From: a virus
Virus record (IMG/VR): IMGVR_UViG_3300028417_000013
Span: 1 to 36,307 of that record
DNA: 36,307 nt
Reading direction: 5' to 3' (one strand)
The notes beneath the pieces are model-generated. The model was given only the letters and a program-made list of their open reading frames with translations, had not been told where the DNA came from and ran no database searches. Position 1 is the first letter of the stretch, and every line of letters starts with the position of its first letter. Positions 1,043-33,623 of the stretch are shown here, in pieces. Made by a program: the position numbers and the translations under genes.

Positions 1043-4000
1043 TTAGTCACCTTCGGCAACACTATCAGGAAATCCGAACAACTTCATTGTACCTTGCTTT
1101 ATATCACCAAAGTCAATATCTTCCATGCCTTCCATGATCTGTTCAGCTTGCGGGGTCATTAGACCAAATATAGAACCTAAACCCATTGCTGTATCAGCAA
1201 GATATTCGGTAGCCAGCTCAAAATCACCTTCACCAGCATTTACTAATGCGCTATATCCATCACCTATTGTATCATATACATTCGGCGCCCATTTCAATAA
1301 GCCGCCGTTTGGCGTTGACTTCCCGCGCGCTTTGCGAATACCAAAGTTAAGCAGGTCAGAAAACAAAGGAATAGCATTCAAAGAGCCGAGAACTAATGTT
1401 ATAGCCTGATCCTCTTCATCAAATTCACCAAAGAGCAAGCCATTCGATAATGCACGATAAAATTGCGGTATCAACACATGATAAATTAAAAACCGTTTGC
1501 CAAACTCTTTCTTGCTGATCTCTTTTTTGAAAAAGAACTGTCTAAATGCGCGGATCTCACCCCTGAATTGGGCGAACGGTGCAGACTGAAACATCGATAA
1601 TGTGCGGCCAACTGCTTCATCCATTTGCATCAACGACATTTGATCGACGTCCTTTGATTGCTGTGTTTTCCGTGAAGAATCTTCAAATGCACTCACCGCC
1701 TTCGCATGGTAACTTTGCTTTGTAGCCTTGCCAGCACTCACGTCAGCATCAAATTTCTTGCTTGCTTGTTCTAAAGACAGGCCACCAGTAACCATTTGTT
1801 CGATCGCAGAGTGACGATACACAGGCCACCCGCCCAGATATATCGCACCACGATCACCAAGCTTGGTGAATATCAATGTGTAATCGATCAGGTTTTCTTT
1901 TTTGTCCTGAATCTTTTTCAGCGTCAGATTATCAAAGGTTTTCCCCATGCGCGCGATGTCAGCTTCTTCGGAATACCCTCGATCAAGAAGGAACTCTGTG
2001 CCGCCTAAAATCTTGACAGCTTCCGAAGCGTTGAAGGCGAAGTGACGTGTGCCGTCAACAAGCGCGGCCGCAGGAATAAATTCACCGTATGCAAAATATG
2101 AAGACATCTGCGTTAAACCTATTTTTGCTTTTCCACCTAAGACAGAGGTAGCAAAGTTACGGTTCATATAGTTGAATATACGTTCAATTTCGTTAGCTTC
2201 ACGCCCACCCTGTCCAGCAATTCGTTCAATAATTTTACTGACATTTTTTGCATAACTATCGCCGAATTTCTTATTGAGCTTGCGCCGCAAATTTGCATTT
2301 CCAAACACATCATTAAGCATCATTGTCTTTTCACGAAAGGCTATAAAATGCGCCATTTCAGCAGTATGAGAGGCAAATACCTGAATATCAGAACGTTTTG
2401 ATAATGCAGAGGTGGCCTTCGCATCACGAAGTTTAAGAGCAGAACCACCAGCAAGTGAGCGACGAAAATTAGTCTCTCGTCCAAACTGATCCGTTGCCCC
2501 TTCTTCAAGGTCAACATCACGCGAGATCGGAGAATAAAAATCAGTCTTCGGAAGGTTAATCCCAAATACGCGGGAGTACACTTCATTTATTTCTTCATAG
2601 AAACCCTCGTAGATTTCAAGCTGTTTTTCAGCAAAATGAATATCTTCCGGCGTTAAAATATCAAAAATTCCGCGAAGCATTTGATCCGTGTAGGCGTTGC
2701 CGTTTTCATGTTGGATCGTTTTTTCTCTAAGTTTTTCATTCTGATATTCCATCCACAACTTTCTTGCTTGCGCCCTAGAATATTCAATATGAATTTCATC
2801 ACCATTCATGTCTTTGAATACACCAATGTCAACAGGAACAGAGCTTTCATCGAGAACACGCATCACATCGCGGTTTTTTCCGCCAAACGCTTCTTTAGCA
2901 GCTCCGACCATGCGTTCATTCATAACTCGAACAATGCGTTTCTTATTAGAAATTTCCCCGCCGATCTCTAATTCATTAACAGTTTCAGCAGGTGCGATCC
3001 TATCAATATAATCGTTCCAGCTTTCAACAGCCCAAGCGACCTTTTCCCTTGCGGCCTTTCGAACACCGGCTCGGCGTTTTTGTGCCAACAGATTACCTTT
3101 AGGATCGATTTGTATATCAATGGCGGCTCTTATTTCTTTGGCTTCCTGGTGTCGGGAAGCCAATCTTTTTTCTGCTTCCTCAAGCCCGAACTTCTGGATG
3201 GCTTCAATACTATCAGCAACGCGCCCGATGAACTGTGCGCTAACTTCCTGCGGCGCTGCTTTCATTTGAAGGACTGCATTCGCCAAGGGGTCAGGAGCAT
3301 CAGCTTTCAGAAATGTTTCAAGCATTTCAGAGGCAGGAGAGAAACCCTTTTCTTCATCAACTTTTCCAGATTTATTATAAAGCTCTTGCAAGTATTCAAG
3401 GCGTTCTTGTGTGGCGGCGTCAAACTTCCCTACGCGCTTTCCAGCTTGTGGCTTACGTTGCAATTTCTTTTTAGATAGAAGTTTTTTGATGCGCGCCTTT
3501 TGCACTCTAATTACTTTGTCTGTTAAAATTCGCTCAATACGACGTTCAAAATCAGGCGCGGCCTTACGAAGCTTTGCAGCGCTATCTATATTCTTAATCG
3601 CTTTGATAAATTTGGCACGATCAGCACCTTCAGGAAGATTTGTTTCTATTATTTCTATTGCAGCTTCCTGCGCAGCTTTTACATCTTTCTTAGCTAGTCG
3701 CACACCTTCTTTAAATGTTTGCTTGAATGATTTTACTGCGCGCGCATTTTCCTGTATTTCTTGATTTGCAATATCGCGTTGTTCGTTAAAGTCAAGGATT
3801 GCATTCCGCTGTTCAAGTTCTGCAATATTTAATTCACTGACAACATCAGCACCCAATGACTCGGCTTCGAGGGCATCCAGCAAGCCTTGCACATCGCTTT
3901 CAGATACACCTTCGCCACCTTCATCACGTAGAAAACCAGCTTCAACAGCCAGTTCACGCGCTTCATCTAGGGATAGCTTTCCGTTTTTATTGGCCACACC

Positions 4001-32371: not shown

Positions 32372-32760
32372 CTATGACTATGACTATTAATGAATTAACA
32401 ATTGGCCAAGCAAAAGAGCTGACTGCACTTTTTGGTGGTAATCAAGCTGTCAATGATGGTTTGAATGACATGATCGGTGATAAAGTCATAATTAGGACTT
32501 ATTCTGCTGGCGTTTGGTTTGGTGTTTTATCAAAAAAAGCTGGCAATGAAGTTATTCTGTCTAATGCTAGGAGATTGTGGTACTGGAAGGCTAAAAAAGA
32601 AATTAGTTTAAGCTCGGTTGCCTTATATGGAATTGATGAAAGTGATAGCCGTATAGTCGTGCCAATTGATAGCGTATGGCTTGAAGCAATAGAAATAATC
32701 CCATGCTCTGATGCTTCTATAAAATCCATAGAAGGGGCTAAAAATGAGCAAGCTAGATAA
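32368..32760 (+). CDS. DUF6948-like phage protein
   Basis: A 130-residue protein. GDKVIIRTYSAGVWFGVLSKKAGNEVILSNARRLWYWKA...LSSVALYG, then SVWLEAIEIIPCSDASIKSIE, is the conserved pattern of a phage family often encoded next to Gly-rich repeat proteins. The beta-rich fold has no known activity. The start ATGACTATGACTATGACTATT contains three tandem ATGACT units (MTMTMTIN), so initiation may occur at several codons. It overlaps the previous gene by 4 nt. Confidence 0.7.
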   Translation: MTMTMTINELTIGQAKELTALFGGNQAVNDGLNDMIGDKVIIRTYSAGVWFGVLSKKAGNEVILSNARRLWYWKAKKEISLSSVALYGIDESDSRIVVPIDSVWLEAIEIIPCSDASIKSIEGAKNEQAR

Positions 32761-32974
32761 ACCTGCTGGCTCTGGCTATGGCGATGGCTCTGGCTATGGC
32801 GCTGGCAATGGCTATGGCTCTGGCAATGGCTCTGGCAATGGCTATGGCTCTGGCTATGGCGATGGCTCTGGCGATGGCTCTGGCAATGGCTCTGGCTATG
32901 GCTCTGGCTATGGCGATGGCTCTGGCTATGGCGATGGCTCTGGCGATGGCTCTGGCAATGGCTCTGGCGAATAA
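32744..32974 (+). CDS. Gly-Ser-Tyr-Asp/Asn repeat protein
   Basis: A 76-residue protein. After MSKLDKPAG, almost all residues alternate Gly with Ser, Tyr, Asp or Asn (GSGYGDGSGYG...). No fold or catalytic motif. It starts inside the end of the DUF6948-like gene (17-nt overlap), a pairing seen in other phages. Such [G/S]Y[G/S] low-complexity chains resemble those that form condensates or flexible coats, but this is inference. The same DNA is also open in another frame (Ala-Leu-Ala-Met repeats). Confidence 0.6.
   Translation: MSKLDKPAGSGYGDGSGYGAGNGYGSGNGSGNGYGSGYGDGSGDGSGNGSGYGSGYGDGSGYGDGSGDGSGNGSGE
32768..32968. repeat. Tandem 6-bp (GGC-NNT) repeat array
   Basis: About 33 units of GGC followed by TCT, TAT, GAT or AAT. 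The units are ordered in irregular 12- to 24-bp blocks. Expansion or contraction by 6 bp keeps the reading frame, so length variants should be tolerated. Confidence 0.9.
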
Positions 32975-33018
32975 TTAAACTTTATCAAATCTAAACCTAA
33001 GAAAAAAGGAATATAATT

Positions 33019-33234
33019 ATGACTTCACTATCAGGAAAAGTAAAATTCTTCAACCACGATAAAGGCTTCGGATTTATCACCCCAAATGATGGCAGTGGTG
33101 ACGTTTTCGTCCATATCACGGCCATTCAAGATTCTCACCTCGACAGCTTGAGCGATACCGACGAAGTGACGTTTGACAAAGTTGAAGGTAAAAACGGCAA
33201 ATTTCAGGCTGAAAACATCAGTATCACAAATTAA
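33019..33234 (+). CDS. Cold-shock (CspA-type) RNA chaperone
   Basis: A 71-residue CSD protein with RNP1 KGFGFI (15-20) and RNP2 VFVHI (29-33), starting GKVKFFNHDKG. It binds single-stranded RNA and DNA and can melt structures or act as an antiterminator. Standard family length. It follows the repeat protein after 44 nt (AAAAAGGAA site) and precedes a tRNA-like RNA. Confidence 0.93.
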   Translation: MTSLSGKVKFFNHDKGFGFITPNDGSGDVFVHITAIQDSHLDSLSDTDEVTFDKVEGKNGKFQAENISITN

Positions 33235-33240
33235 CCTTAT

Positions 33241-33303
33241 GGGGATGGTTGCATAGTTCAATGCGTGTAATTCTAAGTAGCAGGTGGAAACCCTGCCATC
33301 TCC
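33241..33303 (+). ncRNA. 63-nt tRNA-like structure without anticodon arm
   Basis: Acceptor-like stem: GGGGATG (33241-33247) with CATCTCC (33297-33303), 7 bp with one G-T. T-arm-like: GCAGG (33280-33284), loop TGGAAAC, CCTGC (33292-33296), perfect 5 bp, directly adjoining the acceptor strand as in tRNA. D-arm-like: TGCA (33250-33253), 8-nt loop, TGCG (33262-33265). Only 14 nt lie between D and T arms, too few for an anticodon arm. The D loop has TTC and the T loop has GAA, a possible reversed loop contact. The element is followed by TACA, not CCA. It could be a degenerate tRNA, a tRNA mimic or a processing signal. Confidence 0.45.
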
Positions 33304-33338: not shown

Positions 33339-33623
33339 ATGCCTATTTATCTAGTAAAAACACCAAACGGCCAAAAAATGGTTAACGCACCAACCAAGGC
33401 CAGAGCTATCAACCATGTAATCAAGAATACCATCACAGCAGAGGCGTTGAGCGCCGAAACTGTAGTAGCACGCATGGAAGATGGTGAAGCCGTTGAGAAG
33501 GTCGGATATGCATCCGAAGCACCTGTTCAGCCAGAAGCTACAGAAGAGACAGGATTTTATTCCAATGAGGAATTAGATGCAGCTCATGACGAGGTTGACC
33601 ACACCCGTCCGTTGGAGGATTGA
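33339..33623 (+). CDS. Small hypothetical protein
   Basis: A 94-residue protein from ATG 33339 (AGAAGGAC site). MPIYLVKTPNGQKMVNAPTKARAINHVIKNTI is a pattern seen in small phage proteins; the C-terminus is acidic. The earlier in-frame start at 33249 would run through the tRNA-like element and is unlikely. Function unknown. Confidence 0.6.
   Translation: MPIYLVKTPNGQKMVNAPTKARAINHVIKNTITAEALSAETVVARMEDGEAVEKVGYASEAPVQPEATEETGFYSNEELDAAHDEVDHTRPLED

Follow-up and report, generated by a model that had tools for sequence, protein, structure and literature searches.

The question raised by this locus is whether a 63-nt stretch that can be folded like part of a tRNA, and which lies between two phage genes, represents a functional RNA and, if so, what such an RNA might do. 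The window, by which we mean the whole 36,307-base virus record IMGVR_UViG_3300028417_000013, carries head-tail adaptor, exonuclease and Erf-like annealing genes of phage type, and the stretch in question occupies positions 33241-33303 of its plus strand. We consider it probable that this is a real RNA which borrows the tRNA machinery of the cell for a role other than translation.

The tRNA-like element and its surroundings

The three helices were located where the initial annotation had placed them. The acceptor-like stem comprises seven pairs, with a single G-U at pair 3, its 5' strand GGGGATG (33241-33247) pairing with CATCTCC (33297-33303), after which the sequence continues with TACA, without CCA. 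Two nucleotides further on, a hairpin in the D position (33250-33265) is formed by a 5-bp stem (TGCAT, 33250-33254, and ATGCG, 33261-33265) and the 6-nt loop AGTTCA, which contains no GG. A 14-nt linker (33266-33279) stands in place of the anticodon and variable arms, and is followed by a T arm of five pairs and a 7-nt loop (GCAGG-TGGAAAC-CCTGC, 33280-33296), the stem of which runs straight into the acceptor. In these respects the original description is borne out: the element is tRNA-like, lacks an anticodon arm and has acceptor, D-position and T arms, the T arm directly joining a 7-bp acceptor and 14 nt being left for the anticodon/variable region. Its location between a cold-shock gene and a small gene is borne out as well.

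The upstream gene (33019-33234, plus strand) encodes a cold-shock protein (Csp) of 71 aa (Pfam PF00313, E 7e-22; PHROG 729), and its TAA stop is followed by a 6-nt leader, CCTTAT (33232-33240 with the stop, plus strand). The element begins 6 nt past this stop, ends about 23 nt upstream of an AAGGA ribosome site and lies 35 nt ahead of the ATG of the downstream gene (33339-33623, plus strand), whose product of 94 aa (MPIYLV...) belongs to no known family. No intrinsic terminator-like site was found between the csp gene and this next gene.

Some further features were observed around the csp gene. Just upstream of it, a 76-aa ORF (32744-32974) consists almost entirely of GSG(Y/D/N) repeats, and the 36-nt leader of the gene (32986-33021) matches, at 94% identity, the opposite strand of the relative (L283, 10558-10593), away from the csp gene there. 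A cspA thermoregulator (RF01766) covering the element was not detected at the gathering score of 78; weak similarity to this family lies at 32900-33184 in the window (18 bits) and at 1505-1814 in the related contig L002 introduced below (67.7 bits), where it is upstream of the element.

Taken by itself, the window sequence folds with ordinary energy. The minimum-energy fold (-20.5 kcal/mol) has a z-score of -1.74, 12 of 200 shuffles being equally good, and with growing flanks the z-score moves to -1.26 and then to -0.30. This fold retains the acceptor and T stem, with the D region paired slightly differently, and its energy is mildly better than that of the shuffles. The bare geometry (acceptor, 5-bp hairpin and adjacent 5-bp/7-nt arm) is present at one place in the window; shuffled windows contain it 0.31 times on average, and 42 of 150 contain it one or more times, which means that one sequence alone does not rise above chance. 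A 5-bp hairpin in the D position arises by chance in 10.8% of shuffled window interiors and in 2.7% of shuffled L002 interiors.

ARAGORN, one of the checks that had been suggested, called neither a tRNA nor a tmRNA in the window. In an Rfam scan of the window no family covers the element, and RF00005 was absent both at gathering and at E values up to 10. A decoding-tRNA cloverleaf with a 7-nt anticodon loop was not found, the D hairpin and T arm being separated by 14 nt. The tRNA elbow, whether D-loop GG with T-loop TTC or the AG/TGC alternative, is absent from the window (AGTTCA and TGGAAAC) and from L002 (GACAGA and TGAAAAC), so that the missing consensus GG and TTC noticed in the window hold for its relative also. 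Because these anticodon-arm, D-loop and T-loop features were tested for and not found, the element is not classed as a tRNA. It does possess a tRNA-like top half, by the working definition of a 7-bp acceptor stacked on a 5-bp/7-nt T arm and kept in relatives.

Conservation at an orthologous locus

A search with the downstream protein returned a sole close relative, contig IMGVR_UViG_3300005043_000007 (L002). It is colinear with the window for the most part, and the longer of the aligned pieces show a DNA identity of about 66-79%. Searches for more relatives with this protein, both as a single sequence and as an alignment, returned the L002 contig only, and two neighbouring proteins found no match among annotated phages. 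In L002, a 103-nt element occupies the identical locus, with a csp gene on one side (48 of 71 residues identical) and the homologous small gene on the other (47 of 90 aligned residues identical); the csp stop and CCTTAT leader are identical as well, being part of a 22-nt identical run. The 115-nt stretch holding the L002 element has a z-score of -3.25, bettered or equalled by one of 200 shuffles.

When the helices of the two elements were aligned by hand, all 17 pairs proved to be kept, six of them having changed on both sides. Three acceptor pairs differ (one compensatory, two one-sided) and none is broken. The D-position hairpin stands at an equal offset in L002 and has a loop of equal size, but each of its five pairs is replaced on both sides. 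No pair of the T stem is changed, and the T arm, which was not used in finding L002 (this was done by synteny), is the same at 16 of its 17 bases. The end of the linker, CTAAGTA, matches CTAGATA in L002. Compensatory changes, of the kind for which relatives were to be inspected, are present in one homologue.

In five neighbouring genes the two sequences agree at 81 of 168 four-fold degenerate sites (48%; 52% different), a level at which neutral survival of the fold is unlikely. When neutral change at 48% identity was simulated, 6.5e-5 of the draws retained every one of the 12 acceptor and D pairs, and 5e-5 retained the T arm with no more than one change; this simple simulation ignores the freedom in the hand alignment of the hairpins, so that its odds are more extreme than the real ones. 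In the window, the frame of the downstream gene stays open across the element. A TGA inside the T arm closes this frame in L002, which indicates that the region is not protein-coding, and a coding reading was rejected on that account. The initial concern that homologues might turn out unstructured or coding did not materialise, the L002 element being structured and interrupted by this stop.

Where the window has its 14-nt linker, L002 has a middle of 54 nt with two further hairpins, an anticodon-like arm (ACGG-GTCATAA-CCGT, which looks like a CAT anticodon) and a fourth arm (CTAG...CTAG), and C-CCA stands directly 3' of the element. To judge from the two sequences, the window element resembles a fuller cloverleaf that has been shortened. 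It might consequently be taken for a functionless, decaying tRNA gene, given that L002 has an anticodon-like arm and a 3' CCA and the window has lost both, together with the variable arm. We hold this to be quite improbable, since every pair is kept at a divergence where over half of the four-fold sites differ, six pairs have changed on both sides, and the elbow of GG and TTC is already missing from L002, which receives no tRNA call from ARAGORN despite its anticodon-like arm. The more specific idea of a suppressor-tRNA relic did not survive the alignment, in which the CTA of the window falls opposite the 3' strand of the L002 fourth arm, beside the T stem, and not opposite the anticodon-like loop GTCATAA. 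A reversed contact between TTC in the D loop and GAA in the T loop had also been proposed; the hairpin is kept in L002, but its D loop GACAGA offers the T loop TGAAAAC no partner, and the contact is not supported.

A covariance model was built from L002 and four elements of other phages (L092, L095, L096 and L146), with their middles removed and the window left out. It finds 33241-33303 of the window at 29.9 bits (E 9.5e-5), with the runner-up at 8.0 bits, a score to be read with the caution that the T arm alone gives 16-20 bits and that the training members except L002 were found by their T arm. The model gives a true tRNA of L092 28.9 bits, and so does not separate the elements from tRNAs sharing the acceptor and T stem. 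The evidence beyond chance is comparative: the L002 ortholog, the covariance-model match, and an excess of viral T arms with an adjacent acceptor, described below. That the geometry arose fortuitously in an AT-rich intergenic stretch, as its appearance in shuffled windows might suggest, is extremely improbable and already contradicted by L002, which keeps position, pairing and T-arm sequence, and by the covariance-model match.

Similar elements in other phages

The T arm of the window kind recurs in tRNA-like elements of other phages. Seven viral stretches, the L002 contig itself among them, contain the 19-mer T arm of L002, and in five (L092, L095 and the near-identical L096-L098) it is accompanied by a fully paired 7-bp acceptor and the body of a tRNA-like element; L093 is without them. 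A looser T-arm pattern returned 75 viral stretches. Of 50 distinct viral sites with a T arm of the form GCAGG-TGRRAAC-CCTGC, a 7-bp acceptor abuts the T stem exactly in 19, the window among them, whereas 25 shifted offsets gave 1.2 such sites on average and never more than 3; counted by sequence family, with the window left out, the figure is 12 of 33 against 0 to 3. The adjacency peaks at offset 0 (18 of 49 sites), with nine sites at +1, partly from sliding. We judged eight of the 12 families to be tRNA-like (L094, L027, L019, the L122/L128 group, L140, L146, L092 and L095/L098) and four to be doubtful (L004/L025, L021/L034, L105 and L106). Genome contigs, in which at least 117 stretches matched, gave little signal: among the matches listed, RRAAC sites have an adjacent acceptor in 7 of 76 cases, against a mean of 2.1 and a maximum of 6, and several we take, by eye, to be a 23S rRNA helix. 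The short exact pattern GCATAGTTCAATGCG returned 57 stretches, in the printed contexts of which no element was seen by eye.

The acceptor GGATCGG is common to L092, L095 and L146, whose elements have D hairpins of 5-6 bp; ordinary tRNAs with this same acceptor adjoin the element in L092 and L095, and other tRNAs do so in L146. In a second group (L008/L027, L019, L103, L140 and the L128 group) the D arm is Leu-like and contains no GG, and 18/19 to 55/56 covariation in these Leu-like elements was seen by eye only, in A-rich loops. When a Leu-like D arm was combined with a free T stem, 30 stretches were retrieved; L008, L027 and L019 pass for T stem and acceptor and 27 fail, among them L288, L296, L302 and L308, which resemble Leu tRNA with a different T arm. 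The reduced architecture of the window is shared by a 56-nt element of L329, made up of acceptor, D arm and T arm alone and lying ahead of a gene; it has a canonical T loop, and its minimum-energy fold differs. RF00005 at E values up to 1 gave no match to the elements of L002, L008, L019, L122, L146 and L103, nor did RF00005 match those of L092 and L095-L098, where the tRNA matches fall elsewhere. Searches of annotated phages returned no family match for the window, L128 and L103 elements, and ordinary tRNAs plus weak matches for the L095 and L329 regions.

Several observations concern the tRNA-like and tRNA genes of these phages in their own right. The L128 element (3212-3327, 116 nt) lies ahead of genes starting MKITKRQLR.IIREA, with relatives in L122, L135, L143 and L155. 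In tRNA arrays of three genome contigs (L251, L262 and L276) and a viral contig (L139), many T loops TGCRA are paired with D-loop AG, not GG, and this combination looks like a swapped elbow in which 18/55 is changed and 19/56 kept. Among 150 ARAGORN tRNAs of the retrieved loci, which were selected on the T loop and not the D loop, 29 of 37 TGNRA loops go with AG without GG, and 100 of 101 TTCRA loops with GG. Finally, L095/L330, L328, L329, L146 and L092 carry clusters of normal, odd and suppressor-like tRNAs (ARAGORN anticodons TCA and CTA), many of them with the GGATCGG acceptor; a spacer leader repeat in these clusters ends in GTTGCGA, and the clusters are partly ahead of a secreted-looking gene.

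The genomic context was surveyed for 12 elements, using mechanically called ORFs of at least 60 aa. Those of the window, L002, L103 and L329 begin 6-7 nt behind a same-strand ORF (6 in the window, 7 in the others), and in L002, L103 and L329 the downstream start lies 29-39 nt past the element. The intergenic pattern is not universal, as the elements of L008, L019 and L092 overlap same-strand ORFs, and that of L329 is also inside a second same-strand ORF of 62 aa. A 3' N-CCA was found only in L002 and L103 among the 12. A general companionship with phage csp genes was considered and rejected: 16 of 17 csp loci are without an element, and the remaining one, L311, is the L002 contig.

Such placement would suit a cis-acting leader that sets translation of the 94-aa downstream gene, or uncouples this gene from csp. 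The short distance from the element to AAGGA, the unchanged gene order in L002, and the position of the L096, L103, L128, L140 and L329 elements ahead of a gene (start codons partly by eye) are consistent with it. We nevertheless consider a leader unlikely, as the ribosome site is in no consistent helix when the flanks are folded, the downstream genes differ among phages, and a leader would have no need of a tRNA-like T arm.

The elements vary in length, from about 100-126 nt in several phages to 63 nt in the window and 56 nt in L329, and only the top half is constant among them, the anticodon domain being variable or missing. This constancy would be expected of a trans-acting tRNA decoy or sRNA, a stable released RNA that occupies host proteins binding the acceptor-T half, for which the CCA-adding enzyme, EF-Tu, a synthetase or an antiphage toxin attacking tRNA acceptor ends are candidates. 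The G-U of the window acceptor lies at pair 3, the position of the alanine identity pair, and would allow charging by alanyl-tRNA synthetase. However, pair 3 is G-C in L002 and A-U in the GGATCGG elements, and an alanine identity pair was rejected for this reason; the base after the window acceptor is T, not A, and the target is putative, so that a decoy is, in our estimation, a doubtful explanation. A wider proposal, that of a scattered class of phage RNAs which keep only the acceptor-T half, are matured by host tRNA enzymes and mimic the top half in trans as decoy or cofactor, with an optional anticodon domain, is speculative and distinctly improbable.

Proposed role and comparison with known systems

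We tentatively favour a reading in which the element is a real, selected, non-coding tRNA-like RNA between co-directional genes, acting by analogy like a t-element of plant mitochondria or like mascRNA. Acceptor and T arm together form a 12-bp stack, in tRNAs the ruler for RNase P and other tRNA enzymes, which would here imitate the tRNA top half. Host RNase P would cut on the 5' side of G33241, and RNase Z or RNase E, as the 3' endonuclease, after about 33303, splitting the csp message from the downstream message, leaving trimmed, structured ends and probably releasing an RNA of 63-66 nt. No decoding would be involved, and the anticodon domain would be free to vary, as it does between L002, which has it, and the window. 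The sequences themselves establish the position and the helices, a fold kept in one ortholog, similar elements in other phages, a non-coding state in L002 and the lack of a tRNA call; that the two genes are transcribed together, that tRNA enzymes cut the transcript and what the cut would serve are inferred. Support for the reading comes from the ortholog at the matching locus with its pairing kept, the neutral simulation, the covariance-model match, the excess of T arms with an adjacent acceptor, the position of the element between genes read in one direction, and the lack of a terminator-like site. Among the roles initially offered (mimic, decoy or processing point), a processing point fits the location best.

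Several observations speak against t-element-like processing. The window acceptor is followed by TACA, and not by the 3' RCCA that bacterial RNase P prefers; without the canonical GG and TTC, the elbow read by RNase P may be absent; and there is one ortholog, an ordinary fold energy in the window, and overlap of some elements with ORFs. The element is classed as a tRNA-like RNA and not as a t-element, to which it is compared by analogy, its processing by RNase P and RNase Z being putative.

The listings returned by the literature searches made here contained no report of such a class of phage tRNA-like RNAs. Few tRNA-like RNAs that serve no part in translation are known from bacteria and phages, and ARAGORN and the Rfam tRNA model miss the elements scanned here. 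As a free RNA, the element would be a compact mimic of the tRNA half that is recognised by most tRNA enzymes and several toxins.

Among known systems, the tRNA-like domain of tmRNA resembles the window element in having an acceptor and T arm and no anticodon arm, and a G-U at acceptor pair 3, as present in the window, is a tmRNA feature. Unlike tmRNA, the window element is without an mRNA-like domain or tag, for which the D hairpin and T arm leave no space between them, and it is not called by ARAGORN. The T-even phages have tRNA-like molecules too, namely RNA C and RNA D. PMC11143913 lists phage C4 antisense RNA of P1/P7, M3 RNA and polycistronic mRNAs among RNase P substrates, and its references include a title on T-even tRNA-like molecules. 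T-element-like processing is plausible in a phage, given that the substrates of RNase P include other phage RNAs and certain polycistronic messages. The C4, M3 and T-even RNAs are, like the window element with its presumed tRNA processing, small non-tRNA phage RNAs; they have no sequence family in common with it, Rfam being silent on the window.

In Bacillus cereus, tRNA-Other is described in PMC3399842 as a pseudo-tRNA inside a larger regulatory RNA, with a role outside translation. It is likewise tRNA-like, non-translational and placed within a longer transcript (a putative one in the window), but possesses a Trp anticodon and a tRNA-sized body, whereas the window element has no anticodon arm. 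According to PMC11658184, RNase P and RNase Z cut both the t-elements of plant mitochondria and the mascRNA of mammals, which are tRNA-like, the t-elements not being aminoacylated and mascRNA being divergent in the D stem and anticodon region. They share with the window element a tRNA-like fold at message boundaries, and CCA is encoded neither in t-elements nor in the window. They differ in belonging to an organelle or nucleus instead of a phage, while in the window both the D and T loops are without canonical residues and processing is putative. If the phage element is cut like a t-element, then phages would split their messages by tRNA punctuation, as organelles do.
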